From the NCBI GenBank assembly GCA_029262835.1, contig JAJCYQ010000078.1, positions 1-41,872 on the forward strand: 41,872 bases of DNA. The letters are read 5' to 3'. Under the pieces are notes generated by a model. The model worked only from the letters and a program-made list of their open reading frames with translations. It searched no databases and was not told where the DNA came from. How positions within the stretch are numbered: position 1 is the stretch's first letter; the number at the start of each line of letters is the position of its first letter. Made by a program: the position numbers and the translations under genes. The stretch is from Bacteroidota bacterium. GTDB lineage: Bacteria; Bacteroidota; Rhodothermia; Rhodothermales; UBA10348. This document shows positions 474 through 15,708 of this stretch, one piece after another.

Positions 474-555
474 CCACTTCATCCTCGCGTATCACGTAAA
501 GCTCGTCGCCCTGTGGCTAGAAGTGCCATCTTCGCACACTATCGAAGAGCCACAT

Positions 556-1074
556 TCAATTACGGTACTGACCGGATATAACGCCTAATATTTCTGCGTA
601 CCTATCGTCCGTTACTTGACCAATCCAGTGCCGAACTACAATGCCTCGTTCATCGACATAATAAAACGTAGGCACACCTACTGGTGCGGCTTTTACTATA
701 TCAACTTTATACAAGTTTTCTATTTCGATACGGTGCTTCTCTAGTAAAGCGTATTGATGCTTCAGTAGCGATGACGTAAGGTCTGCATCAACCAAAGCGT
801 ACAGATAAGTGTCACTATCAAGCATCCTGTCATTCATCAATCTATTTATATATTGATAACTATTCGCGCAGTATATACAAGATGGAGATATAGCCATGAC
901 TAAGGCAGGGTACTTAATACTATTATTTGCAATAAGACTATCCACAATGATCAATCCAGAGTTGTTATCAGAAAGCGAATCAACCGGCTGATAATAATAA
1001 ATATAACTTGCAATAAATATTATAAGTACAGTCCAGATTGAATAATGATAATATATCTCCTTGGTCTGACTCAC
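556..1074 (-). CDS. Membrane-anchored thioredoxin-fold protein
   Basis: The 172-residue product starts at a GTG overlapping the stop of the upstream propeller gene (AAGTGAG), with GAGG just ahead of it. Residues about 14-28 form an N-terminal membrane anchor, so the rest should face the periplasm. A CIYC active-site motif at 66-69 within SPSCIYC and a later V-P-T segment (GVPTFYYVDERG) give the CxxC and cis-proline loop of a thioredoxin/TlpA-like redoxin. Its likely role is thiol-disulfide exchange. The obvious candidate clients are the two cysteine-rich exported peptides encoded upstream on the same strand, though that link is inferred from neighbourhood only. The gene is strongly AT-rich compared with the rest of the window, suggesting acquisition by transfer. 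Confidence 0.7.
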   Translation of the reverse strand: MSQTKEIYYHYSIWTVLIIFIASYIYYYQPVDSLSDNNSGLIIVDSLIANNSIKYPALVMAISPSCIYCANSYQYINRLMNDRMLDSDTYLYALVDADLTSSLLKHQYALLEKHRIEIENLYKVDIVKAAPVGVPTFYYVDERGIVVRHWIGQVTDDRYAEILGVISGQYRN

Positions 1075-2174
1075 TTAACCTCTACCTCGTACGAATGTAT
1101 TGTTACAAGCGTATCTTGCTCTGTAATAATATATTTAGATGTTGCTATTCCATTTACATCATTTACCATTGGCACTGTAATACTGTGTTCATATTTGTTA
1201 TCAACAAGATTATAGAAATCGAATAGCATTTCTCCATCTACAGAAGCTAATTTATTTCTTATAATTAATTTATGTTCTTCAACTACTATATTGCTACTAT
1301 TTATCAACCATTTTTGAGGAGGTATAAATACATTATTGAACTCTGGAACGACAGGATAGGTATAATTCTCGTTGATCTTATCAGGTGTGTACCAAGATTC
1401 CCATTCACCGTCATCATGGAGGTTTATCTTTGTAATAATTGGAAAATAAAAAGGTACGTATACTATATACTCATGATTACCACGTAAAACACCTGGAATT
1501 ATAAATATATCATTTCGATTCATTTCAGAGTACGTTGGCCCTATATCTACAATGGTATTATGCGAGTATTTCAAGTAATTATTATTAACAGATCTATTAA
1601 ATAGAATAAATGATGAATCTATACCATTAAATGACATGCTGCTTATTGAGTTGTAGTATTCATCACTTGCATACTCAGATATTGATACTCGATCTATATA
1701 ATGACCATTTTTATTGAAAATATTTATTCTATTATTATATGAATCAAGTATATACACTTCATTATTTACAATATTTGCCGAAACAGGATTTCCCATTTCG
1801 CCTGGAGCTTCACCAATTCCATGGCCATAAGTAGCAATGTTGGATCCATCGAAAGAAAATGTTTTTACTTTTTTGTCACCATAATCATACACAACCAAAA
1901 CCGAATCAATAACATCCAGTCCTCCGACATTTATTAAATAATAAGAAGAATCTACGCCAATTTGCGCTACCTTCTCAGTCCTAACTGACAACAATAGCCT
2001 GTCAGGAACTATTTCATCGTCTACGAGATTTTCAAGACTCATGATCAAGCTAGGTGCAGTGACAGTTGCAATATCATTTGTATCTGTACTACATCCTATG
2101 CTAAATGCATGTATTATTATAATAAATGAGGATAAGGCAATATTGTTTTCCGCGACATATCTTAATGTGTACAT
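1071..2174 (-). CDS. Six-bladed beta-propeller lipoprotein
   Basis: The 367-residue protein has a hydrophobic N-terminus ending in the lipobox-like AFSIGC (Cys28), so it is probably a lipoprotein. The body shows propeller repeats typical of the six-bladed TolB/NHL-like group common in Bacteroidota. The diagnostic segment is a G-x-x-x-G-E-x-P-G-E motif followed by a strand ending in D-S-Y-N-N-R-I-N-I-F. The same place reads GPGEF in the three GC-rich propellers further right. It overlaps the thioredoxin-fold gene by 4 bases, implying co-translation. The catalytic role is unknown; such proteins usually bind ligands or partners. Codon use is very AT-rich. Few Shine-Dalgarno features are visible at the ATG. 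Confidence 0.7.
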   Translation of the reverse strand: MYTLRYVAENNIALSSFIIIIHAFSIGCSTDTNDIATVTAPSLIMSLENLVDDEIVPDRLLLSVRTEKVAQIGVDSSYYLINVGGLDVIDSVLVVYDYGDKKVKTFSFDGSNIATYGHGIGEAPGEMGNPVSANIVNNEVYILDSYNNRINIFNKNGHYIDRVSISEYASDEYYNSISSMSFNGIDSSFILFNRSVNNNYLKYSHNTIVDIGPTYSEMNRNDIFIIPGVLRGNHEYIVYVPFYFPIITKINLHDDGEWESWYTPDKINENYTYPVVPEFNNVFIPPQKWLINSSNIVVEEHKLIIRNKLASVDGEMLFDFYNLVDNKYEHSITVPMVNDVNGIATSKYIITEQDTLVTIHSYEVEVK

Positions 2175-2507
2175 ATTGGAAATGAAGTGATTGGTTGATT
2201 CACTGATTCAACAAGATAATCCCATAGGAAAGACTTGCGAAGCTGGTTGGAAAATAGCGTCTTCCTGCCTAAAGGATAACCTCATGACTCGGACAAACTA
2301 TCTTTGCGTCGCTTATCACGTTGCAGTATTGACAACCCCATTTTTCCTTTACCATGTGCTCGCTGTAACAAATGATCTGTACGAATTGCCGAACACGATA
2401 CCGTGATACGGACTCAGAATGGTACGATCCACTTTCTCACATACTTGTCCAAATCAAATCACGAAGAATGAGACACACACAGTCAACACCGACTTGAGAT
2501 ACACAAA
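2175..2507. other. AT-rich intergenic region without a recognisable gene
   Basis: No open frame here looks like a protein; the longest is a 71-codon plus-strand frame with no family resemblance. The part nearest the propeller start contains two overlapping weak inverted repeats (AGTGA with TCACT, and GTTGA at 2194-2198 with TCAAC at 2208-2212). These could be an operator or leader hairpin for the minus-strand propeller gene. I see no terminator after the small peptide gene that ends at 2508. Confidence 0.4.
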
Positions 2508-2738
2508 CTAGTCCTCAGTCTGACATATCACAAATGTATCTCCATTTCCACAGGGAACAAAAGCACAAGGTATTTCCGATCCACTACAACCTGCTGGCGC
2601 ACAGAATAGCGGTGCCTCGTAACATGGTATTTCCTCAGCAGCTTCTACTTGTTTTATTTCTATTGAAAGGACAATGATCACTGATGTAATCAGCAACACT
2701 GAACTAATGATTCTCGAGTTTGATTTTATCATTCTCAT
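2508..2738 (-). CDS. Small exported cysteine-rich peptide (paralogue 1)
   Basis: The 76-residue product has a basic start, a hydrophobic segment at about residues 10-27 and a probable signal peptidase site near VEA-AEE. The mature part is only about 40 residues and has six cysteines. Its pattern C-x3-G-C-x-G-x-E-x-P-C-A matches the neighbouring peptide at 2790-3026, so the two are paralogues despite low overall identity. I do not recognise a named family. The layout recalls small exported peptides found near propeller lipoproteins in Bacteroidota (for example the NVEALA group), but no sequence identity with them can be claimed. Disulfide-bonded maturation is likely. Confidence 0.6.
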   Translation of the reverse strand: MRMIKSNSRIISSVLLITSVIIVLSIEIKQVEAAEEIPCYEAPLFCAPAGCSGSEIPCAFVPCGNGDTFVICQTED

Positions 2739-2789
2739 TGTAATTGTGTTTTGATTGTATTTATTTGACGCATAGTTTACCTACCCAAT

Positions 2790-3026
2790 TCACACGGGAT
2801 CACCTAAGCAACCCACAGTCACTTCCTCTCCGACAACACAAGGTACGTCAAAGCAACACAATGTTTCAGCACACGGCTCTTCACCTCCGTCACATCCAAG
2901 CTGCGAACATGTAAATTGGCATACCGGAGGTGCCCCTCCAGCTTCCTCGTAATACCCTCCCCATATTAGAAGTAATGTCAGTCCGAGAATAACATATACC
3001 GATATAAAGCCTTTTTTTGAATGCAT
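2790..3026 (-). CDS. Small exported cysteine-rich peptide (paralogue 2)
   Basis: The open frame reaches back to 3140, but the ATG at 3026 is preferred. It has an AAGGTGG ribosome site 5 bases upstream, puts the hydrophobic segment (FISVYVILGLTLLLIW) directly after a basic start, and gives 78 residues, nearly equal to its paralogue. The mature region carries eight cysteines, including a CC pair. It shares C-x3-G-C-x-G-x-E-x-P-C-A with the 2508-2738 product. Function is unknown; a secreted disulfide-rich peptide (signal, toxin or structural) is plausible. It diverges from the LuxR-type gene at 3206 across about 180 bases that may hold shared control sites. Confidence 0.6.
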   Translation of the reverse strand: MHSKKGFISVYVILGLTLLLIWGGYYEEAGGAPPVCQFTCSQLGCDGGEEPCAETLCCFDVPCVVGEEVTVGCLGDPV

Positions 3027-3205
3027 AGAATCCACCTTGATCGTTGGTTTTGTGATACTCGCTCGCACGATAATTTCTTTGTTCATAGTGCTCATGTCAA
3101 GGGACAAATGTCCGTTTTTGCAATTATCTTCTGCTTCCATGTCCGGTTTTGGGTCGTTTTTTCGTTTTGGTAGGTGAGAGCCCTTTCAACCTGCAACCAA
3201 CTACC

Positions 3206-3567
3206 ATGGACAATGCGTACCCCCCCCCCCCCCCGAATATGACTTTCCTGCCATTCCCGATGCATCTGAGGGGCTGGAGGCGATTTACCGGTTCCTGCGG
3301 GACCTGGACATCACGCCGCGCCGCCTTGAGGTGCTTCAGCTCATGAGCAATGGACATCTTTCTGACTCGCAGTATGCTGAGCGTCTCTTCATTACCGAGT
3401 CTGCCCTCCGCAACCACATAAGCAACATGCTGCCACTCGGGCCATTTCGAAGCCGGTACGAGTTGTTTGCCTGGGCCCGTGGATCGGCCATCATTGACGT
3501 GAATGCTACTGCCTACCGAGCCTGGCGGAAGGCACACCCGAACAACACACCGCCCGCAAATCCGTAG
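3206..3567 (+). CDS. LuxR-type HTH regulator, out of frame at a poly-C tract (candidate phase-variable)
   Basis: From about 3313 to 3500 one frame encodes a complete LuxR/GerE helix-turn-helix: ITPRRLEVLQLMSNG, then HLSDSQYAERLFITESALRN and HISNML. The frame remains open upstream through EYDFPAIPDASEGLEAIYRF to a run of 15 C at 3220-3234. An ATG at 3206 (MDNAY) leads into the run in a different frame and, with 15 C, reaches a stop at 3346. With 16 or 13 C the same ATG would read through the HTH, giving about 120 residues. A GTG at 3331 could start a shorter product but would cut into the HTH. No sensor domain is present. A sequencing error in the homopolymer is the main alternative. Confidence 0.6.
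3220..3234. repeat. Poly-C homopolymer of 15 bases
   Basis: An uninterrupted C run lies 15 codon-bases into the LuxR-type reading frame, where it encodes prolines. It is the longest homopolymer in the window and sits exactly where the frame changes. Such tracts mutate by slipped-strand mispairing and act as contingency switches in many bacteria. Confidence 0.85.
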
Positions 3568-3603
3568 ATTGCGGCAACTTTCCCACGTCATTGTGTGTCG
3601 TAT

Positions 3604-4830
3604 ATGCCTATGAAACGCTTAAGGGTACGTCCATGGCAGGTGGCTGCGCTCGTGCTGCTTATGGCAGCGCTTGGAATTGGCGGCTATGTGTTCTGGCCGG
3701 CGCTTACGGGCGCATCTACAGGAAATGAACGGGACGTTCCGGACACGGAGCGGGTTGCGCAGCGCACGCGCGTGGGCGTCGTGGTGGTGGAGCCGACCGA
3801 TTTCCTGCTGTTTGCCGAGGCGACGGGTAATCTGGCGCCGTGGCGGAGCGCGGAAGTGAGCCCTGAGGCATCGGGCGTGGTCAGGGAGCGGCTCGTGGAA
3901 GAGGGAACGCGGGTTGCAGAGGGAGCGGCGCTTATCCGGCTCGATTCGCGGGATCAGGAGCTGGAACTGGAAGAAGCGCGGAGCGAGCTGCTTCGCGCGC
4001 AGATTGATTACACCGGGAAGCGGGTGGGCGCGAGCACGATATCGGCCGATTCCACAGCCATTACGCGGGCGAAGGCGCTTTTTGAACGCGCCCGGCAGCG
4101 GTACGAAGAGGGACTTTTGACGCTGGGTGAGTTTCAGGATGCCCGGCGAGCCTACGACACGGAAATGATTCGCAGCGGGGGGCGGGCCGTCGATGTCCAG
4201 TCGCTGCTCTCCGGCCTCGAACAGGCCGAGCAGCGGGTCAGGCGGGCGGAGCTGGCGCTCTCGCGCATGACCATCGCGGCGCCGTTTGGTGGGCGGATTG
4301 CGAACCTTGAGGTAGAGGAAGGGCAGCATATTTCCATGGGGACGCCGGTCCTTACGCTGCTCGACGATTCGCGCATGAAGGTGGATGTGAGCGTGCTGGA
4401 AGCGGACCTTGTGGGGCTTGGGCCGGGGGCCGATGCGCGCGTGCGCATTCCGGCGCTCGCCGACACGGTGCTGAGTGGTCGTATTTTTTCGGTCAACCCG
4501 TCCATTGATCCCGACACGGGCACGGGGCGCGTGACGGTTGAAGTCGCCAATCCGCGTGGCAAGCTGCTATCGGGGCTCTTTGCCTACGTGCAGCTCGAGG
4601 CCGGGCGCCTGTCGGACCGCATTGTGGTGCCCGCCGAAGCCGTGCTGTCGCGTCAGGGTCGCGACCTGGTCTTTACCGTCGAAGGCAGCCGCGCGCAGTG
4701 GACGTACGTCACAACCGGGCGCCGCTCCGGCGGCCTCGTTGAAATCGTGGAGCCGCTCGCGCCGGGCGACAGCGTCGCCGTGGAGGGGCATCACGCGTTG
4801 TCACACGATGCACGCGTGGAGGCCCAGTGA
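3604..4830 (+). CDS. RND efflux periplasmic adaptor (membrane fusion protein)
   Basis: About 408 residues. A basic start (MKRLRVRPW) is followed by one hydrophobic anchor at about residues 11-31. Then comes the HlyD/AcrA-type layout: a barrel-sandwich hybrid half (LAPWRSAEVSPEASGVVRE), a long alpha-hairpin, the second lipoyl half (MTIAAPFGGRIANLEVEEGQ), a beta-barrel, and a C-terminal membrane-proximal region. It should link the inner-membrane pumps encoded next to an outer-membrane channel, but no TolC-type gene is in the window. The frame opens at a GTG at 3595; the ATG at 3604 or 3610 is more natural and neither has a clear ribosome site. It overlaps the next gene by 4 bases (GTGA). Confidence 0.9.
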   Translation: MPMKRLRVRPWQVAALVLLMAALGIGGYVFWPALTGASTGNERDVPDTERVAQRTRVGVVVVEPTDFLLFAEATGNLAPWRSAEVSPEASGVVRERLVEEGTRVAEGAALIRLDSRDQELELEEARSELLRAQIDYTGKRVGASTISADSTAITRAKALFERARQRYEEGLLTLGEFQDARRAYDTEMIRSGGRAVDVQSLLSGLEQAEQRVRRAELALSRMTIAAPFGGRIANLEVEEGQHISMGTPVLTLLDDSRMKVDVSVLEADLVGLGPGADARVRIPALADTVLSGRIFSVNPSIDPDTGTGRVTVEVANPRGKLLSGLFAYVQLEAGRLSDRIVVPAEAVLSRQGRDLVFTVEGSRAQWTYVTTGRRSGGLVEIVEPLAPGDSVAVEGHHALSHDARVEAQ

Positions 4831-7800
4831 ACCCGTTCGTACACGCATGCTTCAGGCGGCCGGTCGCGGTCACCGCCTTCTTCCTGCTCGTGGGGGTTGC
4901 GGCCGTCGCCTCGTGGGTGCGCCTGCCTGTGGCTCTGTTGCCGGATTTGCGCTACCCCACGCTCATTGTCTGGACGGCCTACCCCGACGTGCCGCCCGAG
5001 CGCGTGGAGCGGGCCATCACGGAGCGCGTAGAAGAAGCCATTTCCGGGACGCAGGGCGTCGAGCGGCTCACGGCGCGGTCCATGCTCGGCGGCAGCATGA
5101 TCCGCCTTGATTTCGGGTGGAACACGAACCTTGACCTGGCGCTTCTTGAGGTGCGCGAGCAGCTTGACCGGCTCGGCGAGGGCCTCCCGGACGAGGCCGA
5201 CCGGCCCGTCGTGCTCCGGGTCGATCCGAACGACCGCCCCATCATGATCCTCGCGCTCTCCGAATCGCGCGCGAGCGGCCAGTCGGGCAACCTCGTGCGG
5301 CTCAAGACGGTCGGCAAGGAAGTCGTGGCGCGGCGCCTGGAGCAGCTTCCCGATGTGGCCCGCGTCGTGGTTACGGGGGGATACGACCGCCGCGTCGACA
5401 TTGTCCTGGATCCGGCCCGACTGGCGGCGTTCGGACTCGACATCAGCCGCATTGAGCAGGCGCTGCGGCGCGCGAACGTGGCACAGCCGGGCGGATCCAT
5501 TCGGCGGGGGCCGTTCCAATATGCGGTAGAGGTGACGGGCGAGTATGAATCGGTGGCCGATATCGCGGAGACGGTCGTGGCGCAGCAGGGAGGGCGCATG
5601 CTGCGGCTCAGGGATGTCGCCGAGGTGCGCGAGGGCGTCGATGTGCGGCGCGGACTCGTCCGCCTCGATGGCCACGAGACGCTCATGCTGCTCGTGGAAC
5701 GCCGCCCGGATGCCAACACCGTGCGCGCGGCGGACGACGTCCGCGCCGCACTCGCGGAGCTGAACGAGGCCATGCCGGACGTCCAGATGGATGTTGTGGT
5801 GGACGAGAGCCGATTCATTGAAGAAGCCATCGGGGGGGTTACGCAGGCCGTGCTGCTCGGGGGGCTGCTCGCCATCATCGTGCTCTTCGTGTTCTTGCGC
5901 CACAGGCAGGCGCTCGTGGCCGTGGCCGTTGCCGTGCCGCTCTCACTCGGCATGACGCTCGTCGCGTTCGAGGCGCTCGGCGTGACGTTCAACCTGATAT
6001 CGCTCTCGGGCCTCGCGCTCGGCGTCGGCATGCTGGTTGACAACGCCATCGTGGTGGTTGAAAACATTGCCCGGCTGCGCGAAGGCGGCATGGAAGCGCG
6101 CGAGGCGGGCATCCGGGGCACGTCCGAAGTGGCGGGCGCCATTACGGCATCGACCCTCACGACGATTGCCGTCTTCTTGCCGCTGACATTTGTTGAGGGG
6201 CTCGCCGGAAGGCTTTTCCTGGACCAGTCGCTCGCCGTCATTACATCGCTGGCATCGTCCCTCGTCGTCGGCCTGACCGCCGTGCCGCTCATTGCCTGGC
6301 GCGGCGAGCACAAGGCCGCCGGCGGCGGCGTCGACACCGGCCGCTTCATGCGCGGCTACGAGCGGGCGCTTGCGTGGTCGCTCCGGCGCCGGGGCGTGGT
6401 CGTGGCGGCCAGTGTGGTCCTTGTAGCCGTTGCCGCCGTTGTACTCGACGTGCTGCCGCGCGAAGTCGTGCCGCGCACGAACCAGGGCCGTATAAACGTG
6501 CACCTGGCGCTGCCCCCAGACGCCGACCTCCCGCTGCTCGACATGCGCGCGCAGGAGTGGAGCGCCGAACTCGCAGATCACGCCGCGTTTGACCACGTGC
6601 TCGCAGACCTTGGCGAGCGCGACGAGGCCCGGCTCCAGGTCGATCCGCGGCCGCCATATGAAGGCGACCTCTCCCTCATCCTCTCGCCCGGTGCCCGCCT
6701 CACGGACGCCCTCACCGCCGCGCGCGAAGCGCCTGCGCCCCCCGACATGAGCGTCGAGGTGACGCCCGTCCGCACGCAGCTCGAGGAGCTTCTGGCGTCA
6801 AACGAAGCGGACCTCTTCGTGGACCTGACAGCAGATACGCGAACGGAAGCGCTCGCGCCGTACGAGCGCGTACTTGAAGCGCTCGAGGCGAGCGGCGAGC
6901 TGACCAACGTGCGGCGCGCGAATGCCTTCAACGTGCCCGCGTGGAACCTGGAATTCCGGCGCGATGCCCTGGCCCGGCACGGCGTGGACCCACAGGCGGT
7001 TACGGCGCTTCTGGAGGCCGGCGCGCGGGGCGTGCATGCGACGGACCTTCGGAGCATCAACGAGGACATCCCGATTACGCTTCGGCTGACGGGAATTGGC
7101 ACGATGGATGATCTGCTCTCGCAGCGACTCGCGACGCGGAGCGGTCCGCTTCCCCTTTCGACGTTTGTCAGCGCCCGGTTCGTTGAGCTTCCGGCATCGC
7201 TCTACCGCACGAACCAGTCGCCCATTCTGCGCATTCTGGCCGACGTGGCGCCGGGCGCGGACCTGGCATCGGCAACGCGCGGGGCGGAGGCTGTGCTGGC
7301 TGCCGACGTGCCGGACGAGGTGCGCGGCATGGTGGGCGGATCGAACGAAGCATTCCAGAGCAGCCTGCGCGCCATGCTCTGGAGCCTGCTGTTTTCGGTC
7401 GTCCTGGTGTTTCTGATCCTGTCGGCGCAGTTTGAATCGCTCACGCAGCCGCTCGTCGTGCTGCTTACCGTGCCGCTTGCGGCAAGCGGCGTGGCGGCCG
7501 TGCTCGCCGCGACCGGCCAGACCATCAACCTCATGAGTCTTACGGGCAGCGTCGTGCTCGTCGGCATTGTGGTCAACGATGCCATTGTCAAGGTCGATTT
7601 CATCAACCAGCGGCGGCGGGACGGGCTCGACAAACACGCGGCCATCATGGAGGCGGGCCGCGACCGGCTGCGCCCCATTCTGATGACGACGATTACAACC
7701 GTGCTGGGCCTGTTGCCGCTCGCCCTCGGCTTCGGTGAGGGCGCCGAGCTGCGCGCCCCCATGGCCATTGCCATCGTGGGCGGCCTTCTGGCGGCTACGG

Positions 7801-7850
7801 TGCTGACGCTGATTGTAGTGCCTGTCGTGTATTCGCTGGTGGAGAAATGA
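4827..7850 (+). CDS. RND efflux pump permease, first subunit
   Basis: The 1007-residue product has the full RND layout: an N-terminal TM helix, a large periplasmic loop (YPDVPPERVERAITERVEEA), TM2-6, a second loop and TM7-12. TM4 carries LVDNAIVVVENI, containing the conserved proton-relay Asp. TM10 reads VGIVVNDAIVKVDF, with Asn-Asp where AcrB has Lys-Asn, as seen in several RND subfamilies outside Proteobacteria. It starts at a GTG inside the adaptor stop and ends by overlapping the next permease (ATGA), so the three are translated as a unit. Substrate cannot be read from the sequence; lipophilic compounds are the usual cargo of this HAE-like type. Confidence 0.93.
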   Translation: MNPFVHACFRRPVAVTAFFLLVGVAAVASWVRLPVALLPDLRYPTLIVWTAYPDVPPERVERAITERVEEAISGTQGVERLTARSMLGGSMIRLDFGWNTNLDLALLEVREQLDRLGEGLPDEADRPVVLRVDPNDRPIMILALSESRASGQSGNLVRLKTVGKEVVARRLEQLPDVARVVVTGGYDRRVDIVLDPARLAAFGLDISRIEQALRRANVAQPGGSIRRGPFQYAVEVTGEYESVADIAETVVAQQGGRMLRLRDVAEVREGVDVRRGLVRLDGHETLMLLVERRPDANTVRAADDVRAALAELNEAMPDVQMDVVVDESRFIEEAIGGVTQAVLLGGLLAIIVLFVFLRHRQALVAVAVAVPLSLGMTLVAFEALGVTFNLISLSGLALGVGMLVDNAIVVVENIARLREGGMEAREAGIRGTSEVAGAITASTLTTIAVFLPLTFVEGLAGRLFLDQSLAVITSLASSLVVGLTAVPLIAWRGEHKAAGGGVDTGRFMRGYERALAWSLRRRGVVVAASVVLVAVAAVVLDVLPREVVPRTNQGRINVHLALPPDADLPLLDMRAQEWSAELADHAAFDHVLADLGERDEARLQVDPRPPYEGDLSLILSPGARLTDALTAAREAPAPPDMSVEVTPVRTQLEELLASNEADLFVDLTADTRTEALAPYERVLEALEASGELTNVRRANAFNVPAWNLEFRRDALARHGVDPQAVTALLEAGARGVHATDLRSINEDIPITLRLTGIGTMDDLLSQRLATRSGPLPLSTFVSARFVELPASLYRTNQSPILRILADVAPGADLASATRGAEAVLAADVPDEVRGMVGGSNEAFQSSLRAMLWSLLFSVVLVFLILSAQFESLTQPLVVLLTVPLAASGVAAVLAATGQTINLMSLTGSVVLVGIVVNDAIVKVDFINQRRRDGLDKHAAIMEAGRDRLRPILMTTITTVLGLLPLALGFGEGAELRAPMAIAIVGGLLAATVLTLIVVPVVYSLVEK

Positions 7851-10800
7851 GCGCCCCCGACCATACCCACTTCGCCTGGTCCGAACGCCTTATTCGGCGG
7901 CCCATCGGGGTCTTGGCGTGGTCGGCGGCTATTCTGCTGGCGGGCATCTGGTCGGCCTTCCAGGTGCCGCTCGAGTGGGTGCCGCAGGTCGAACTGCCGG
8001 TCGTGAGGGTGAGTGCGAACTGGGCCGGCGCATCTCCCCGAGCCATGGAACGCTACGTGACAGCGCCCATTGAGCGGGCCGTGCAGCGCGTGCCGGGGAC
8101 GGAGAGTGTCGAAAGCCTGTCGGACGAGGGGCGCTCGACGATTACGCTGCACGTCTCGGACAAGGTCGATCTCGGACTCTACACGGCGCAGCTTGGCGAG
8201 CAGCTGACCATGCTGCGGGGCACACTGCCCGACCGCGTGTGGCCGCGGATTACGAAAGAGGTGCCCGAGGCGTTGCGGGATGAACAGGGGTTCATGAGCA
8301 TTCAACTCATTGCGCCGCTTGCGCTTGACGAGGTGCGGCGCGTCGCCGAGCGGACCGTCCGGCCGGCGCTCCAGAGCATTCCAGGGGTCGGCGACATCGA
8401 GGTGCTGGGCGGCACGGAGCGCGAGTTGCGCGTAACGCTCGACCCGAACCGTCTTGAAGCGCTCGGCGTGGGGGCGGGCGAGGTTTCGGTCCGCGTGCGT
8501 GAACTCCTGGTCGATGACGCGTACGGGCGGCTCGAGGGCGGCGGGCGGAGCGTACTGCTCATGCGAACGTCCGAAGACCGCGTGGAGCGCTTCCGCAGCC
8601 TGGTGCTCAGGCGCTCTGGCCGCGCCACGGTGCGGCTCTCCGACGTCGCGACCATCCACATGGAACCGGCGCCAGTGCGCTCCATAAGCCGGATTGACGG
8701 GCAGCCGGTCGTAACGCTGCGGGTGGACCGCGCGCGCGGCAGCCACCTGATCGAGGTGGCGGAGAACATCCACCAGCGACTGGCCGAACTCACAGCGGCG
8801 CTCCCGACCGGCGCGCGCCTCATTGTGGCCGATGACCGCAGCGAAAGCGTGCGCGAGCAGATGGACGATGTCACGCGGCGCGGCGGCGCGGGGCTCCTGC
8901 TCGTCGTGCTCGTACTGCTTGCCATGCTGCGCAGCGTGCGCGCAACAGCCGTCGTCCTCTTCTCGGTGGGCGTATCGCTCGCCATCGCCGTCATTCTGCT
9001 GCAGCCGCTTGGCCTCACGCTGAACATGCTGACGGTCGCAGGCCTCGTACTCGTCTTCGGGCTGCTCGTGGACAACTCGGTGGTCGTCGTCGAGCAACTG
9101 CTCATGCGACGGGGGGATTTTGCTGTGGGAGATGCGCTCGCCGCGGTCTGGCTGCCGCTCGTGGGTGGCACGCTGAGCACGATGGCTGTGATGCTCCCCC
9201 TTGTCTACCTGAGCGGGGACCTGCGCACGCTCTTTCTGCCCTTTGGCATTCTGGTCGCGCTTACGCTCGGCGCGAGCCTTCTGACGACGGCGCTCGTCGT
9301 GCCGGTGACGGTGCATTTCCTGCCGGTCCACGCGCCGCCGGGGCGCGCCGGGCGGCGCCTGCGCACGTGGATTTCGGCCCCCTACCGGTGGGCGGGGCGG
9401 TTTCCGCGCGTGACCGTGGCGGCGATGGTGCTGCTTCTCGGCCTGCCCGTCTGGCTCCTTCCCGAGCGGATGGTGGAGGAGGATGCAGGCCGGGCGTTGG
9501 CCGCCAATCAGGAAGGCGATGGGGCCGTCTCCCCGCGCGCCCGCCTCGCGAAACTCTATAACGCGGCCTTCGATTACAGCGCCGTCCGGGACGTGCGCGA
9601 ATGGACCGATCCCCTGCTCGGCGGCGCGCTCCGCGTTTTCCGGCGCGATGTCAATTTCGGGAGCGGCTGGTCCTGGACGCCGCGGCCCGAGGTATACGTC
9701 AACATGAGCTTTCCCCCAGGTCATCCGATTGCCCGGGCCGATTCGCTCATGAGTCAGTTCGAGCGCCAGGCGCTGGCCTCCCCATCGGTCGACCGGATCA
9801 TCCTCAATATCAACGAGGAGAATGCCAGCATGCGGTTGCAGTTCAGCGAGGAGGCGCTCCGAACCGCCGAGCCGTACATGCTGCGCGAGCGGCTCATTGG
9901 CACGGCCGTGAACATCGGCGGGCTGCGCATCAGCGTGGGCGGGCTCGTGCAGGATGGCTATTACAGTGGGGTCGGTGGCGGTATTTCGGGCGTGCGCCTC
10001 GAAGCCCGGGGTCCGAACTACGAGGATCTGGACCGCCTGGCGCGGCAGTTTGCGCGGCATCTGGAAGGTCGCAGCCGCCGCGTGGCCGGAGTCGATGTGA
10101 ACGCGGATCGGTTTGGTCGATTCGAAGCGGCGCGGCAGGTCATCCGCTTCGAGTGGACTCCCGAATCGGAAGAGCGATCGGGGCTGAACACGCAGATGGT
10201 CGCGGCGGCGCTCGGCCCCGTTTTCCGCACGCGCTTTCCAATGGCATGGGCGGACCTTGAGGAGCAGGCCCAGGTCCCCGTGCGGGTCATTGTCGAGGGC
10301 GCAGAAAATGCCGACGTGGCCGATCTCATGGTGCAGCCGCTCGCCGTTTCCGATTCAGCGGCGCTCGTGCTCGGCGACTTTGCCAACTATTCCATTGAAA
10401 CCCGGCCCTCTGGCGTGCGCCGCATTGACCAGCGCTACCGTCGCTTCATATCGGTCGATTTCCGAGGCCCGTCCCGCATGGCGAACGACTTCGTGGAGCG
10501 GGAACTGGCTGCCTTCGCCGTGCCGGTCGGATACACGCTCGAGCAGTCCTCGTTTTCATTCTTCACGGACGATGTCAAGGAGTCCTTCGGCTGGCTCATG
10601 TTGGCGACCATCCTGCTCGTTTTCATTGTGACAGCGGCGGTGTTTGAGAGCTGGCGGCTTCCCGTCGTTGTTATTCTGTCGGTACCGCTCTCGGCGGTCG
10701 GGGTCACGTGGGGCTTCGTGTGGACGGGCGCGAGCTTTGCCGAAGGCGCGTTCATCGGCGCCGTCCTCATGGTGGGTATCGCGGTGAACGATTCCATCCT

Positions 10801-11089
10801 GCTCGTGGACCGCTACCGGCAGCACCGCGCGCGCCGCCCGCACGGACGGCCGAACGTGCTCGTGCGTCTGGCCGTACGCGAGCGGCTGCGCCCCATGATT
10901 ACGACGACGCTTACATCCATTGTAGCCATGATGCCCATGCTCATCTACGCCGACAACGCGGACTTCTGGACGGGGCTCGCAGTAACGGTCACAGGCGGAC
11001 TCAGCTCCAGTACGCTGCTCGCCCCCATCATGGCCGTGGCGGTCGTCAGCCTCCGCAGGTCGCCGCATCCATTAAAAACTACGTCATGA
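7847..11089 (+). CDS. RND efflux pump permease, second subunit
   Basis: The 1080-residue product is a second complete RND permease, clearly different from the first. TM4 contains GLLVDNSVVVVEQLLM and TM10 contains VGIAVNDSILLVDRYR. A long periplasmic domain begins ANWAGASPRAMERYVTAPIE. Two different permeases behind one adaptor recalls MdtABC, where two permeases form a mixed trimer; that this pair does so is inference. It overlaps the preceding gene by 4 bases and the following propeller gene by 4 bases. Confidence 0.92.
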   Translation: MSAPDHTHFAWSERLIRRPIGVLAWSAAILLAGIWSAFQVPLEWVPQVELPVVRVSANWAGASPRAMERYVTAPIERAVQRVPGTESVESLSDEGRSTITLHVSDKVDLGLYTAQLGEQLTMLRGTLPDRVWPRITKEVPEALRDEQGFMSIQLIAPLALDEVRRVAERTVRPALQSIPGVGDIEVLGGTERELRVTLDPNRLEALGVGAGEVSVRVRELLVDDAYGRLEGGGRSVLLMRTSEDRVERFRSLVLRRSGRATVRLSDVATIHMEPAPVRSISRIDGQPVVTLRVDRARGSHLIEVAENIHQRLAELTAALPTGARLIVADDRSESVREQMDDVTRRGGAGLLLVVLVLLAMLRSVRATAVVLFSVGVSLAIAVILLQPLGLTLNMLTVAGLVLVFGLLVDNSVVVVEQLLMRRGDFAVGDALAAVWLPLVGGTLSTMAVMLPLVYLSGDLRTLFLPFGILVALTLGASLLTTALVVPVTVHFLPVHAPPGRAGRRLRTWISAPYRWAGRFPRVTVAAMVLLLGLPVWLLPERMVEEDAGRALAANQEGDGAVSPRARLAKLYNAAFDYSAVRDVREWTDPLLGGALRVFRRDVNFGSGWSWTPRPEVYVNMSFPPGHPIARADSLMSQFERQALASPSVDRIILNINEENASMRLQFSEEALRTAEPYMLRERLIGTAVNIGGLRISVGGLVQDGYYSGVGGGISGVRLEARGPNYEDLDRLARQFARHLEGRSRRVAGVDVNADRFGRFEAARQVIRFEWTPESEERSGLNTQMVAAALGPVFRTRFPMAWADLEEQAQVPVRVIVEGAENADVADLMVQPLAVSDSAALVLGDFANYSIETRPSGVRRIDQRYRRFISVDFRGPSRMANDFVERELAAFAVPVGYTLEQSSFSFFTDDVKESFGWLMLATILLVFIVTAAVFESWRLPVVVILSVPLSAVGVTWGFVWTGASFAEGAFIGAVLMVGIAVNDSILLVDRYRQHRARRPHGRPNVLVRLAVRERLRPMITTTLTSIVAMMPMLIYADNADFWTGLAVTVTGGLSSSTLLAPIMAVAVVSLRRSPHPLKTTS

Positions 11090-12138
11090 GCTTCACTCTG
11101 CGCACGACCATGCTCCTTTTTCTCGCTGGCCTGCTGCCAGCTGGCGTTTGTCAGTCAGGCGCTGCCGCCCAGTCGCTTGAACTCGAGGGGACGTTCGCAG
11201 AGGAAATTCTCTGGACACGCCCCGAGCACGTCTTGACCGACGCAGATGGATCTATTTACATCTCCGATCCGCGCCAGCAGGTCGTTCACCGTTTTTCGGC
11301 CGACTGGGAGCACATGGGGACGTTCGGCGCGAAGGGATCGGGGCCCGGCGAATTCCAGTCCATCAACGACATGGCATGGTCACCCGACGGAGAACTCGTA
11401 ATTCTCGACGGCCGGGCGCGCAGGTTTTCCATCTGGTCAACCGATGGAGAGTACCTGCGCCAGCAGGCATTCACAGATGGTGTCATGGTTGCGGACATGG
11501 CGGCAATCAGTGGCGGGTACGCCATGGCCTACGCCAACTCGACGATGTCGACAGACGATATGCTCATCCTGCACGAAATGGATGCTTCCGGCGCCTTCAG
11601 GCAGCGCTTTCCACAGCCGAAGGATGCCGCAGTCAACGCGTACAACGTCTTGATGGCAGTGTCCATGCCGGGGCGTGTGGCCCGCCTCGGTGATGGCTAC
11701 GCGTGGGCACCGGGCGTCTATGAAGGGTGGATCGGGCGCGTGACAGCTGGCGGGACGTTCGAGCGCGTCCAAGGAGCGTCTGTCGAGAAGCCGGTTATCC
11801 GGGAGGTGCCCTCGCGAGCCGAAGGAAACACGGAGGTCATGAATCCGGGAGAAACGACGTCCACCTACCTGCGCATTGACGCGCTCACCGGGGGACTCTT
11901 CTCGACGCCGGGTGGCGGACTCCTGCTTGCAATTCGACACTATTCACCGGCTCATAACAGCATAAGCCCACCGTACAGGATGGTACTGATGGATGCGGAC
12001 CTGGCGATTGCAGCCACGTGGATGGTATCATCGGACGACCATCTGGGCCTTCCGCTGCACATCGACGCTCGCGGGATGCTCTACTCCGCCCGCTTCGATC
12101 CCGAACCTCATATCGCGGTGTGGCGCATTGCCCGCTGA
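11086..12138 (+). CDS. Exported six-bladed beta-propeller protein
   Basis: The ATG at 11086 overlaps the permease stop (ATGA) and gives 350 residues. The N-terminus MSFTLRTTMLLFLAGLLPAG is a signal sequence, with a likely cleavage near AAA-QS. The mature part is a propeller with NHL/TolB-like blades (HVLTDADGSIYISDPRQQ), the GSGPGEF turn and strands such as GELVILDGRARRFSIW. It belongs to the same broad family as the three other propellers in this window. Its 4-base overlap with the RND pump genes places it in that operon. A role with the pump, such as ligand capture or assembly in the periplasm, is inferred only from linkage. Confidence 0.8.
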   Translation: MSFTLRTTMLLFLAGLLPAGVCQSGAAAQSLELEGTFAEEILWTRPEHVLTDADGSIYISDPRQQVVHRFSADWEHMGTFGAKGSGPGEFQSINDMAWSPDGELVILDGRARRFSIWSTDGEYLRQQAFTDGVMVADMAAISGGYAMAYANSTMSTDDMLILHEMDASGAFRQRFPQPKDAAVNAYNVLMAVSMPGRVARLGDGYAWAPGVYEGWIGRVTAGGTFERVQGASVEKPVIREVPSRAEGNTEVMNPGETTSTYLRIDALTGGLFSTPGGGLLLAIRHYSPAHNSISPPYRMVLMDADLAIAATWMVSSDDHLGLPLHIDARGMLYSARFDPEPHIAVWRIAR

Positions 12139-12165
12139 ACCACACGGAATATCGTTGAGATTTGG

Positions 12166-13308
12166 TCACTCGCTCCGTTCGACAGCAACCCGCACCCGCG
12201 CCACATGAGGGTACGGACTGGGGCGGACCATGTAGAGATCGCCGGGCGCAGGCTGCGCGCGGACCGTGCCAAAGTCGAGCGCATCGAGGTCCTCGTTCTC
12301 GATCGAAAAGAGCAGGCGCCAGTCGGCATCATAGACGTCCAGCGTCGTGTGGTTGATGGGGTCGGGCGGATTCTCCCCGCTGAAAGAGGCCGTCGCGTGT
12401 GCGTCTGGATCAGGAATGTTCGTCGGCCAGCGGGCGCTTATCAGATGATATCCACCTGGCAGGGCAGCGGGCATGGACACGCTGCTGTAGAATCGGACGC
12501 CCAGCAGGTTATCTCCAGATACGGCAAACCCGTGGCGCGTAAAGTCGGACACGCTGCGACGAATAACACGAAGTGTGTCCCCATTTGACGCATGAATGCT
12601 GAGTTCATAGAAGTCTGATCGCCGTAGTGCAATTCGTCCATCAATGACTGCGCCTGACCCACCGATCAACAGACCACCTGGCGGCGGATCGTCCACTGTC
12701 GGAACCACCTTGAATGAATCTGTCACGGCCCAGTCCGTTGTTCGTAACAAACGAACATCGGTACCCGCGGGATTGGTAGAACCTGAAAAAACGGCGGTGG
12801 TATCGTTCAAGAAACCAGTCAGGCTTAAGAAGCCCTGCATTCCGCGTACATCGCGAGGGATTGTGCGAACAAATGTCCCCGTCAGAGAGAAGAGATCCAA
12901 CCGTCTTCCACCCTGATTCGCAACCAGGAGTAGACCATCAGGGGTCATGAACATGCTTCGTGCCCGACTGAACTCGCCCGGGCCTTCGCCCTCGCGGCCC
13001 GATTCCCAGCGGAAGTCGCCCTCGGCGGTGAACGAAACAAGCCGGTTGCGGTCCAGGATATAGACGTTACCGTCGGAATCGACCTCGACACTTCGAATCT
13101 GGGACAGCATTTCGCGCTCAGGTTCTTCCTCGGCGCCAAACTGGACGAGTTCCTCCATAGCAAGGCGGTAGGCGCCATCCGTCTGGTGGGGACCGTGGAA
13201 TGGATTCTCGACGATCAGTTCGGTGCCCGGAGCGTCGGTCGCGGGCGCGCCACCGCAGGCGGCGAGCAAAAAACCGCACATGGCGGCAAGCAGGATGTGT
13301 CTCGTCAC
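12166..13308 (-). CDS. Six-bladed beta-propeller lipoprotein (tandem paralogue A)
   Basis: The GTG at 13308 is chosen because GGAGG lies 6 bases upstream (13315-13319). The frame extends back to 13341 without such support. The product is about 380 residues, starts VTRHILLAAMCGFLLAACGG and has a clear lipobox (LAAC), so it is a lipoprotein. The sequence LIVENPFHGPHQTDGAYRL, a GEGPGEF turn, and blades like DSDGNVYILDRNRLVSFT mark a six-bladed propeller. It is a close paralogue of the gene at 14394-15560; the two align throughout, including the PTNIPDPDAHA and DPINHTTLDVYD segments. It converges with the propeller ending at 12138, leaving 27 bases and no visible terminator. Confidence 0.8.
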   Translation of the reverse strand: MTRHILLAAMCGFLLAACGGAPATDAPGTELIVENPFHGPHQTDGAYRLAMEELVQFGAEEEPEREMLSQIRSVEVDSDGNVYILDRNRLVSFTAEGDFRWESGREGEGPGEFSRARSMFMTPDGLLLVANQGGRRLDLFSLTGTFVRTIPRDVRGMQGFLSLTGFLNDTTAVFSGSTNPAGTDVRLLRTTDWAVTDSFKVVPTVDDPPPGGLLIGGSGAVIDGRIALRRSDFYELSIHASNGDTLRVIRRSVSDFTRHGFAVSGDNLLGVRFYSSVSMPAALPGGYHLISARWPTNIPDPDAHATASFSGENPPDPINHTTLDVYDADWRLLFSIENEDLDALDFGTVRAQPAPGDLYMVRPSPYPHVARVRVAVERSE

Positions 13309-13381
13309 GAGGGGCCTCCATTTTTTACAAACGTACAACATTTTACGCGGAACATCCCATCATAAGCGGGTTACGACAGGC

Positions 13382-13648
13382 ATGGACGAGGCGGTAAAAC
13401 ACTATCTGTCCGAGATCGGGCGAAAGGGCGGCACGCGCAGTCGGCGCAGCCTGAGCCCCGAGACGGCGCGAAACATGGTGCGCATCCGTGAGGCGAGGAA
13501 AGCCTATCGCCGCTTTCACGCGCAGTGCTTCTGGTCGTATCGACCCGATTTGGCCATTGGCCTGGAAGACATTGAATGGGTAGCCCGCACACTCATGAAG
13601 AATGGCAACCGGGAGGCGTGGGAGGTCGCCGCAAAGCTGTGCCGTTAA
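13382..13648 (+). CDS. Small protein paired with an AbiEii-like nucleotidyltransferase (putative antitoxin)
   Basis: The ATG at 13382 gives 88 residues: MDEAVKHYLSEIGRKGG, then a basic Arg-rich segment, then FHAQCFWSYRPDLAIGLEDI and a C-terminal helix. The frame is open farther upstream to 13223, but that part is antisense to the lipoprotein gene and looks noncoding. Proteins of this type are often found directly ahead of nucleotidyltransferase genes, and here the two overlap by 10 bases. A toxin-antitoxin or abortive-infection role is inferred from the partner. It is unlike the larger winged-helix AbiEi antitoxin, so this is not a textbook AbiE pair. Confidence 0.65.
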   Translation: MDEAVKHYLSEIGRKGGTRSRRSLSPETARNMVRIREARKAYRRFHAQCFWSYRPDLAIGLEDIEWVARTLMKNGNREAWEVAAKLCR

Positions 13649-14457
13649 CCGACCTTCAGATTGAGATCCTGCGCCTGACCGGATCGACCCGTACGCCTGA
13701 GAATTACGTCGCTGGCGGGACGGCGCTCCACTTCCGCCCCAATTCCGTGCGGTACAGTCGCGACCTGGACATTTTTCACGACGCGCTGGAGGCGGTCGCC
13801 CCCTCGTTCGAAGCCGACAGTAAACTGCTGCGCGATGCCGGGTTTTCGGTCAGCATCGTCATCAGCCAGCCCGGATTCATTCGCGCTGCCGTTGAAAAGA
13901 GCGGCCAGGCCACGCAGGTTGACTGGGCCCGCGATTCCGCCTGGCGATTCATGCCGGTCATCCGGGAGCCTCATGGAGGCTACATGCTCCACGAGATCGA
14001 CGTCGCCACCAACAAGGTGCTCGCGCTGGCGGGCCGGAACGAGCCGCGCGACTATATCGACGTACATTATATAATAGATACGATCCTGGCGCTGGGCCCA
14101 CTCGTCTGGGCCGCCACGGCAAAAGATCCCGGCTTTTCCCCGCTCTCGCTGCTTGAAATGCTGAAGCGCCGGGGACAATACCGAGCAGAAGAAATCGAGC
14201 GGCTGGACCTTGCCCGGCCGCTCGACCTCGAAGCGCTCAAGCGCACGTGGCTCCACGCGGTGGAGCACGCGGAAAGTTTCATACTGTCCCGCCCGGCGTC
14301 AGAAGCTGGCTGCCTGTACTATCGCGCAGCAGACGGCAGGTTCGTCGAGCCGGCTGGCAAGACTTCACTCGAAAAGCAGGGCCTCGTGCCGCACTATGGT
14401 CGGGCTGGGGGCGTACTGCCTGTTCCTTCGACCGCAACCCGCACGCGCGCCACATGA
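13639..14457 (+). CDS. AbiEii/AbiGii-like nucleotidyltransferase (putative toxin)
   Basis: About 272 residues from a GTG at 13639, which overlaps the small upstream gene. A GGGAGG stretch lies a little far upstream, so the start is not certain. The motif NYVAGGTALHFRPN followed by RYSRDLDIFHD supplies the GG-x-x-L and S-x-D-x-D elements of the nucleotidyltransferase fold (residues about 24-48 from this start). Later segments EIDVATNKVLALAGRNEPRD and YIDVHYI fit the AbiEii family, whose members transfer nucleotides to RNA targets. The 3' end runs 64 bases into the convergent lipoprotein gene, and the last residues (TATRTRAT) are simply its antisense. Confidence 0.75.
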   Translation: MPLTDLQIEILRLTGSTRTPENYVAGGTALHFRPNSVRYSRDLDIFHDALEAVAPSFEADSKLLRDAGFSVSIVISQPGFIRAAVEKSGQATQVDWARDSAWRFMPVIREPHGGYMLHEIDVATNKVLALAGRNEPRDYIDVHYIIDTILALGPLVWAATAKDPGFSPLSLLEMLKRRGQYRAEEIERLDLARPLDLEALKRTWLHAVEHAESFILSRPASEAGCLYYRAADGRFVEPAGKTSLEKQGLVPHYGRAGGVLPVPSTATRTRAT

Positions 14458-15560
14458 GGGTACGGGCTTGCGCGAACAATGTACAGGTCGCCGGGCGCCG
14501 GCTGCGCCATCACGGTGCCGAACTCCAGCGCATCGAGATCGTCGTTCTCGATCGAAAAAAGAAGGCGCCAGTCATCGTCGTAGACATCCAGTGTGGAATG
14601 GTTGATGGGATCGGGCGGATCTTCCTGGGCAAATGAGGCCTTGGCATGCGCGTCGGGATCGGGAATGTTTGTCGGCCAGCCAGCAGCAATGATCCGATAT
14701 CCGCCTGGCAGTACGACGGGCATGGATGTCCTGCTGTAGGACCGGATGCCGGCGCCTCCGTCAAATGTGGCATAGCCAGGCCGCGTGAAGTCGCGCACGT
14801 CGCGCCGCACAATGCGGACAGAATCGCCCGTTGGAGAGAAAATGCCGAGTTCGTAGACGTCAGGGCGGGCCAGCACAATGTTTCCATCCAGAATGGCCCC
14901 TCCCGCTCCAATACTGAAACCAGTCGGCAGGTCAAGTTCCATCTCCGGCTCGACCCGGAATGTATCTGCAACCTGCCAGTCGGCCGATGTCTGCGCCATG
15001 CGGATAATGACGCCCTGGCCATCGCGGACGGCTCCTGTTACGACTGCCGTCGTATCGTCCAGGAAACCAATTGGATTCGCGAAGCCATCGAACACGTCAA
15101 GGTCGCGAGAGAGGGACCGCACATAGGCGCCACTGAGCGTGAAGTAATCGAAACGCTGACCGCCCTGGTTTCGTACGAGAAGATGCCCGTCGGGCGTCAT
15201 GAACATGCTCCAGGCCCGGTTGAACTCACCCGGTCCTTCTCCCTCGCGGCCCGACTCCCACCGGAAATCGCCCTCGGCGGTGAAGGAAATGAGGCGATTG
15301 CCATCCAGAATGTAGACATTGCCTGCTCCGTCAACCTCCACACCGCGCACCTGGGAGAGCATTTCGCGCTCGGGTTCTTCCTCGGCGCCGAACCGGATGA
15401 TTTCTTCCATGTCAAGGCGGTAGGCATTGTCATTCTGATGGGGACCGTGGAACGGGTTTTCGACGATCAGTGCGGTACCCGGCGCGTCGGTCGCGGGCGC
15501 ATCGCCACATGCGGCCAGCAGGAAAATGCATACGGCAGAAATCAGGGTGAGTCGAGTCAT
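14394..15560 (-). CDS. Six-bladed beta-propeller lipoprotein (tandem paralogue B)
   Basis: The ATG at 15560 has GGAG 7 bases upstream and gives 388 residues: MTRLTLISAVCIFLLAACGD with a lipobox (LAAC). The body parallels the 12166-13308 product nearly residue for residue (LIVENPFHGPHQND, GREGEGPGEF, PTNIPDPDAHA). The paralogue ends VRVAVERSE, while this copy continues VRVAVEGTGSTPPARP. This replaced tail lies over the 3' end of the convergent nucleotidyltransferase gene. The pair probably arose by tandem duplication; the TA-like cassette lies between the copies on the other strand. Confidence 0.8.
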   Translation of the reverse strand: MTRLTLISAVCIFLLAACGDAPATDAPGTALIVENPFHGPHQNDNAYRLDMEEIIRFGAEEEPEREMLSQVRGVEVDGAGNVYILDGNRLISFTAEGDFRWESGREGEGPGEFNRAWSMFMTPDGHLLVRNQGGQRFDYFTLSGAYVRSLSRDLDVFDGFANPIGFLDDTTAVVTGAVRDGQGVIIRMAQTSADWQVADTFRVEPEMELDLPTGFSIGAGGAILDGNIVLARPDVYELGIFSPTGDSVRIVRRDVRDFTRPGYATFDGGAGIRSYSRTSMPVVLPGGYRIIAAGWPTNIPDPDAHAKASFAQEDPPDPINHSTLDVYDDDWRLLFSIENDDLDALEFGTVMAQPAPGDLYIVRASPYPHVARVRVAVEGTGSTPPARP

Positions 15561-15708
15561 GCGGAAGCTCCGGTTTTGGGGGGTGCTGTACATCGGGACG
15601 AGACCCTCGAACCTACGAAAAGTTGTCGTGGTGGTGCGGCTGCGCCTCTATTAAACATGAAATTCCGTGTTGATGTGGTGGTTTTTCATGGTTCCGATGT
15701 CGTGTTGC

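Follow-up and report, generated by a model that had tools for sequence, protein, structure and literature searches.

A recurring cassette of cysteine-rich peptides, a propeller lipoprotein and a redox protein in Bacteroidota: a candidate mobile module for disulfide-bonded peptides

The mau cluster combines a propeller protein, a disulfide-rich small chain, MauE and the thioredoxin-like MauD. NVEALA peptides, which are small and exported, are said to lie near propeller lipoproteins. Here we examine a four-gene cassette encoding two cysteine-rich peptides (pepA and pepB), a propeller lipoprotein and a membrane-anchored CxxC protein on contig JAJCYQ010000078.1 of a Rhodothermales bacterium (Bacteroidota; assembly GCA_029262835.1). 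The stretch analysed, called the window below, is the entire 41,872-base contig, from a genome assembly of 3.45 Mb in 103 contigs. Where genomes, loci, families or contigs must be told apart we use our own handles (G, L, f and C, with numbers; the window's genome is G000).

The cassette departs from the mau cluster in several respects. The window peptides have neither a light-chain match nor the Trp pair of the tryptophan tryptophylquinone (TTQ) cofactor, and the propeller is a predicted six-bladed lipoprotein, mobile and fast evolving here; the MauE partner is not matched in the window and is present in relatives of family f18. A loose parallel with NVEALA had been drawn in an earlier reading of the window's letters (the original prediction). 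It fails as a matter of membership: none of 20 diverse cassette peptides matches NVEALA (PF14055), and none of 198 genomes of the phylum holds a match above cut-off. Five weak genome matches have, by eye, no propeller in their 3-kb loci. Among Bacteroides propeller lipoproteins, BtuG and BT1954 are matched in fold by the model of the window propeller (E-values from ~3e-7 to 1e-6); by their titles those structures are cobalamin-bound or complexed with a TonB-dependent transporter.

The nearest published parallel that we found, as far as the excerpted parts of that report go, is a set of MauE-bearing candidate clusters for ribosomally synthesized and post-translationally modified peptides (RiPPs) in Streptomyces, whose precursors have at least 8 Cys (decRiPPter, PMC7794033). 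The likeness consists of a Cys-rich precursor beside MauE, with MauD in one family, outside any mau cluster. The differences are the host, Streptomyces, and the absence of a propeller, a resistance-nodulation-division (RND) pump and an S26 signal peptidase from the clusters described in those excerpts; here the peptides have a propeller partner, and the redox protein of the window is ResA/CcmG-like. A further lead, limited to gene names and tag numbers in a partial view of the source, is a run in B. thetaiotaomicron of hypothetical BT0663, 6-bladed beta-propeller BT0664, lepB BT0667 and RND adaptor BT0669, which resembles the order peptide, propeller, S26, RND of family f18; the numbers given for these genes, 0.113 to 0.437, do not look significant (PMC10434189). 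No described system matching the cassette was found in the literature searched, of which our coverage was partial and thin for subscription journals. By mode of action the cassette would be a variant of disulfide-peptide production, and RND export, if right, would make the module more unusual.

A peptide, propeller and redox cassette

The four cassette genes run along the minus strand, pepB first, and were confirmed in place as originally predicted:

2790..3026, minus strand: pepB, predicted exported Cys-rich peptide of 78 aa with 8 Cys and a CC motif; homologues in other genera and families
2508..2738, minus strand: pepA, predicted exported Cys-rich peptide of 76 aa with 6 Cys; homologues in other genera and families
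1071..2174, minus strand: predicted six-bladed propeller lipoprotein of 367 aa; fold match, and its G008 orthologue lies above the Pfam DUF5128 cut-off
556..1074, minus strand: predicted membrane-anchored thioredoxin-fold CxxC (CIYC) protein of 172 aa with a GTG start; fold model

The propeller and CxxC genes overlap by 4 bases, and the contig edge is ~555 bp from the cassette end. The AT-rich setting within a GC-rich genome, also part of the prediction, is plain: GC is 0.365 in the cassette vs 0.623 in the rest of the window, and it is lower in the cassette than in its surroundings at 17 of 18 loci. The coding status of the genes is backed by homologues in other genera and families.

A search with pepB led to a tandem pair of relatives in G008, from a different genus of the window's family, at a locus where pepB, pepA, propeller and CxxC protein follow the window's order and adjoin an RND operon of their own. 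On the opposite strand of that locus lies a second, different set of peptide, propeller and CxxC protein (L008 3889-5996, plus strand), with a 6-Cys peptide and a TCEAC-type protein. A decayed RND fragment occurs between the two sets (L008 6214-6477). When the four peptides of the window and G008 were made into a profile, 9 of 114 genomes searched within the order matched at E <1e-4, and 17 at E 0.1; six of the nine are from one genus (g12) of another family. The g12 loci carry the same cassette, once in two tandem copies, with broken or missing genes in places.

For a test independent of the peptides, a profile was built from six CxxC proteins and searched in the same 114 genomes. It marked 26 places in 14 genomes. 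Two of these are pieces of a single gene; three places at contig ends (L186, L187 and L193), a remnant (L194) and two others were left out, so that 19 were assessable. At 18 of the 19 loci the same strand has a propeller no more than 220 bp away. At the remaining one (G041, L189) the propeller is 1.9 kb off with two other frames between. These frames, of 194 and 389 aa (L189 5840-7586, minus strand), are by eye possibly a thioredoxin-like and propeller-like pair. A peptide-profile match stands just beyond the propeller at 14 of the 19 loci (one of them a remnant), and a 55-aa peptide fragment seen by eye at L189 brings the loci with a peptide or remnant to 15. Six of the 19 had supplied the profile itself; the nine loci new to this search divide into four with a peptide-profile match, one with a fragment and four with none. 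As to the places set aside, L187 has a propeller and its peptide end is off the contig, and nothing lies near the L194 remnant. The search also reached a third family of the order, f13 (G104, G102). An enrichment of peptides with propellers (29 of 60 vs 1 of 217; with 6 Cys, 17 of 60 vs 0 of 217) is biased because many loci were fetched via their peptides. The 29 also include at least one spurious case (L196), so we prefer the CxxC-based count.

Peptides, propeller and CxxC protein are one cassette recurring in three families of the order. Recurrence of the peptides beside propeller and CxxC genes was what the original prediction had asked for, and it extends to f18 of the same class and f26 of the phylum. 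In G377 (f18) a MauE gene, a 4-Cys peptide, a propeller, an S26 signal peptidase, an RND gene, an adaptor and a second RND gene lie in a row, with MauE and S26 above their Pfam cut-offs. The G377 peptide matched 10 of 92 genomes of f18; nine were examined (G519 was left out), and eight, G377 included, hold cassettes, no propeller being seen in G548. By models built from the G377 proteins, peptide, propeller, S26 and MauE are present in all eight, although in G420 the MauE gene is ~3 kb away and the S26 match is weak (3e-4). An RND pump falls within the fetched stretch in seven of the eight. In the more distant family f26, G411 has in a row a LuxR-type fragment at the contig end, a peptide, a propeller, a CxxC protein, an RND gene, an adaptor, a second Cys peptide and, by eye, a second propeller. 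G471 has a peptide, a propeller and a CxxC protein. The MauE and S26 models from G377 have no match in the window, L008 or L077. The redox partner thus varies, ResA-like in some lineages and MauE in others, while the peptide-propeller pair stays. This swap is our best evidence that the partner's job would be to handle disulfides of the peptides.

Sequence motifs unite the peptides. The motif C-x3-G-C-x-G-x-E-x-P-C-A is literal in both pepA and pepB, as first noticed, and a core C-x4-C-x-G-x(4,5)-C is common to the 20 diverse peptides, most of which have one further Cys. Written as C-x(4,5)-C-x-G-x(4,5)-C, the core is literal in 28 of 39 candidate peptides vs 3 of 231 other small open reading frames with at least 4 Cys, the motif having been derived from the same peptides in which it was then counted. 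Sequence comparison places the peptides in none of the tested families: the 20 have no convincing match in Pfam, NCBIfam or PADLOC, including its anti-phage defence models (the scan covered the peptides only), and a single NCBIfam match, to an Fe-S domain at E 0.005, was taken as chance. Neither window peptide matches a Pfam family, and pepB relatives are absent from the viral contigs searched. An Rfam scan of four loci of one genus showed nothing at the cassette. A hairpin before pepB in some of these loci beats shuffles in one of four (z -3.6; the others ~ -0.8 to -1.0), and we do not claim it. A group II intron match lies upstream of pepB at L034 9817-9892 (minus strand, Rfam 59.8 bits), and a transposase-like gene (398 aa, by eye) lies between a pepB fragment and pepA at L075 5226-7256.

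The lipoprotein assignment, already made in the prediction, is based on a Cys after a hydrophobic stretch, kept in at least 90% of 10 orthologues. Six blades are supported by the fold of a moderate-confidence model (mean predicted local distance difference test, pLDDT, 62) and by its matches to NHL six-bladed propellers (best E 2.2e-10). No match to DUF5128 (PF17170) is listed for the window propeller; the G008 orthologue scores 25.0 bits against a cut-off of 22.9. The model of the CxxC protein (pLDDT 77) has a thioredoxin fold and an N-terminal helix, and it matches CcmG, ResA and StoA (best E 1.7e-5). With its thioredoxin fold, CxxC and conserved Pro loop the protein fits the CcmG/ResA/TlpA group of thioredoxin-like thiol-disulfide proteins, and its Pfam Thioredoxin_2 score is below cut-off. 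The suggestion that this protein works on disulfides gains strength from these matches and from MauE standing in its place in f18. Two CxxC proteins (L190 and L197, with CPYS and CPYT) have lost the second active-site Cys.

Pump, regulator and mobility

An RND pump adjoins the cassette in the window, G008 and G411. In the window it is encoded on the plus strand, away from pepB:

3595..4830, plus strand: RND pump periplasmic adaptor (membrane fusion protein, MFP); TIGR01730 above cut-off
4827..7850, plus strand: RND permease 1; RND_permease_2, E 2e-190, below the curated cut-off
7847..11089, plus strand: RND permease 2; RND_permease_2, E 4e-109, below the curated cut-off

Three additional propeller genes lie near this operon (window 10708-15593) without an adjoining Cys peptide. 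Between the cassette and the pump is a candidate switchable regulator:

3140..3169, plus strand: diverged version of a 30-bp promoter-like element common to the poly-C LuxR genes; it precedes the tract by 80 bp and is not one of the 7 genome sites
3220..3234, plus strand: 15-C tract between an ATG (3206) and the helix-turn-helix (HTH) frame; tracts also in four paralogues and the G001 orthologue
3235..3567, plus strand: small LuxR-type HTH reading frame, divergent from pepB and ending 27 bp before the pump adaptor gene

The HTH scores 22.3 bits against GerE (PF00196), just below the cut-off of 23.5. At the 15-C length the ATG at 3206 is out of frame with it; tract lengths taken from an assembly are uncertain. 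Poly-C occurs at the same place in the G001 orthologue (9 C) and in four paralogues of the window's genome (9, 10, 12 and 15 C), and a G002 contig begins inside a C run at the corresponding place. A 12-C run was expected 0 times in 100 shuffles. Counting ATG starts only, one of six poly-C LuxR genes has an upstream ATG in the HTH frame; in the other five the ATG is out of frame or stop-interrupted. The picture would fit phase variation, with a repeat tract between start and domain whose length differs among relatives. The frame switch that had been proposed for the single window gene is thereby strengthened, supported by a family of like-placed tracts that suggests a poly-C switch of LuxR-type genes.

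Poly-C runs are frequent in the window's genome (172 overlapping 10-mers), and several of those listed lie no more than 60 bp from contig ends. Poly-C or poly-G runs are also frequent in G002 and G003, and G001 has only two. The paralogous genes lie on contigs C21, C101 (two) and C2 of G000 (L141, L142, L143). A lipoprotein-like gene of 441 aa lies divergent to at least one of the C101 genes. Other Cys peptides are the divergent neighbours of both the C2 paralogue and the G001 orthologue, and on C2 propeller lipoproteins follow in an array. The 30-bp element has 7 genome occurrences at no more than 3 mismatches vs 0 for the reversed pattern. Four of the 7 sites are 83 bp before a LuxR tract, and G001 and the window have versions 80 bp before theirs. 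The other three precede tract-less genes, so the element appears promoter-like and not switch-specific. The tract-less sites are at C2:34717, C13:63698 and C31:70728 (L245-L247), and include a 90-aa lipoprotein-like reading frame of GADGHN repeats.

The cassette appears to move. Among six g12 loci, DNA similarity ends near the cassette ends in 14 of 15 pairs, and the cassettes sit in different genomic places. The remaining pair shares another stretch, and here synonymous divergence (dS) of the propeller is 0.10, with a nonsynonymous to synonymous ratio (dN/dS) of 0.72, and that of a chromosomal gene read as ruvB is 0.58, with a dN/dS of 0.08; the comparison is of one genome pair and one control gene. 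Because the propeller dS is well below the chromosomal dS, the cassette copies would have split later than the genomes, as after transfer. No excess of integron-like core sites was seen in L039. A ruvB-like frame at L037 16206-17777 is longer than expected (523 aa), and by eye may hold an intein after the GPPGLGK motif.

Proposed role and rival explanations

We propose that the cassette is a mobile module that makes and exports disulfide-bonded peptides, which in turn work together with the propeller; we give this reading a probability of about 0.6. The peptides would leave the cytoplasm by Sec-type signal peptides and be cleaved by signal peptidase, an S26 enzyme being encoded in the operon of one family. 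In the periplasm a dedicated redox protein, the tethered ResA/CcmG-like CxxC protein here and MauE elsewhere, would fold or edit them. They would then act with the propeller as a binding partner, whether receptor, carrier or immunity protein. In RND-linked lineages the neighbouring pump probably passes them out, and in the window's genus the divergent LuxR-type gene, through its poly-C tract, would turn on the locus in a fraction of the population. The original prediction is in its overall interpretation partly supported; RND linkage, a signal peptidase in relatives, cassette mobility and unequal evolutionary rates were seen beyond it.

The rates bear on both sides of this proposal. The mean pN/pS is 0.33 for the CxxC protein (4 sequences), 0.76 for the propeller (6), 0.64 for pepB (5) and 0.88 for pepA (5). 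A CxxC gene that changes slowly, next to peptide and propeller genes that change fast, agrees with the idea of a ligand and its partner. The high values may also reflect relaxed constraint or decay, several copies being broken. The test is small, with 4-6 sequences per gene and one control gene, and since each peptide was taken to begin at the earliest start codon in its frame, non-coding DNA included upstream may inflate its pN/pS. These points weigh against our proposal, as do several others. At four of the 19 CxxC loci propellers occur without a peptide, which leaves room for a peptide-independent job of propeller and CxxC protein. In the most distant families the peptide profile matches weakly (G411, E 1.3e-5; G377, 2.3e-5); other weak matches are in G303, G321, G358 and G417, of which the one inspected, G417, has no visible propeller. 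Small molecules are the main known cargo of RND-type pumps. Nor does every cassette come with a pump: in families f3 and f13, 22 loci (245 kb) are without an RND permease match, and their one adaptor-type match is ~2.9 kb beyond a cassette (L075). The same 22 loci have no match to the LuxR model of the window or to the MauE or S26 models, and in G003, of the window's genus, the pump operon is present with no cassette in the stretch read.

The pump data also bear on an alternative that we think unlikely, that peptide and propeller are accessories of the pump, as an RND plug, sensor or periplasmic chaperone, with no secretion. RND linkage in three families would suit it, as would a propeller between adaptor and permease in G013 and a weak propeller match (6e-4) in that place in G019. 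The stand-alone cassettes of f3 and f13 do not, nor does the G003 pump operon, which has neither peptide nor propeller in the stretch read. The mau cluster suggests instead an enzyme complex like methylamine dehydrogenase, with the Cys-rich peptide a permanently docked small subunit on the propeller, knit by CxxC protein or MauE as by MauD and MauE. A propeller, a Cys-rich small chain and MauE or a thioredoxin-like protein do co-occur, and the formation of small-subunit disulfides by MauE has been speculated, in the part of the literature consulted (PMC7794033). The window peptides match no Pfam family and hence are not the dehydrogenase light chain, and with no Trp after the signal region in pepA or pepB there can be no TTQ cofactor; a methylamine-type TTQ enzyme is rejected. 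Fast evolution and mobility are likewise unlike a housekeeping enzyme, and we find the broader notion of such a complex quite improbable.

Signalling between cells would make the exported disulfide peptide a pheromone, sensed via the propeller and feeding back on the LuxR-type regulator. LuxR-type genes adjoin Cys peptides in the window, in G001 and on C2 of G000, as does a contig-end LuxR-type fragment in G411; by eye, the G008 locus has nearby a pair of genes resembling a sensor kinase and a LuxR-type response regulator. At ~110-140 aa, however, the small LuxR proteins are mostly HTH, with no sensor domain seen; the propellers have no visible link to the cytoplasm, and at the 22 f3/f13 loci, where other regulators were not searched, the window LuxR model has no match. 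We find signalling improbable too. That the genes came together by chance, in an AT-rich stretch decaying near the end of a contig, is scarcely credible: the contig edge is close, GC is low and some relatives have broken copies, but the gene order is repeated in other genera and families, the frames are long and open with conserved positions, and cassette recurrence led us to reject it.

Antagonism of related bacteria is our leading guess at the purpose of the module, with the propeller as self-protection or target. Mobility, multiple copies, fast evolution of peptide and propeller, and the switch are our grounds for it, and we hold it tentatively. It is possible, and we put it no higher, that the cassettes form an as yet undescribed kind of disulfide-peptide system, spread over at least five families of the phylum, in which a mobile peptide-propeller pair has interchangeable ResA-like or MauE redox partners, its own signal peptidase and an RND pump as exporter in some lineages, and a phase-variable poly-C LuxR family in one genus. 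RND pumps, known mainly as drug and metal exporters, would then handle ribosomal disulfide peptides as well, and a partner would be at hand for some propeller proteins that are so far unexplained. The slow CxxC gene beside fast peptide and propeller genes makes the idea of a ligand and its partner directly testable, and the possible B. thetaiotaomicron counterpart would bring the system into a tractable strain. Repeated through a single genome, the poly-C LuxR genes would offer a clear example of regulators that may be switchable.

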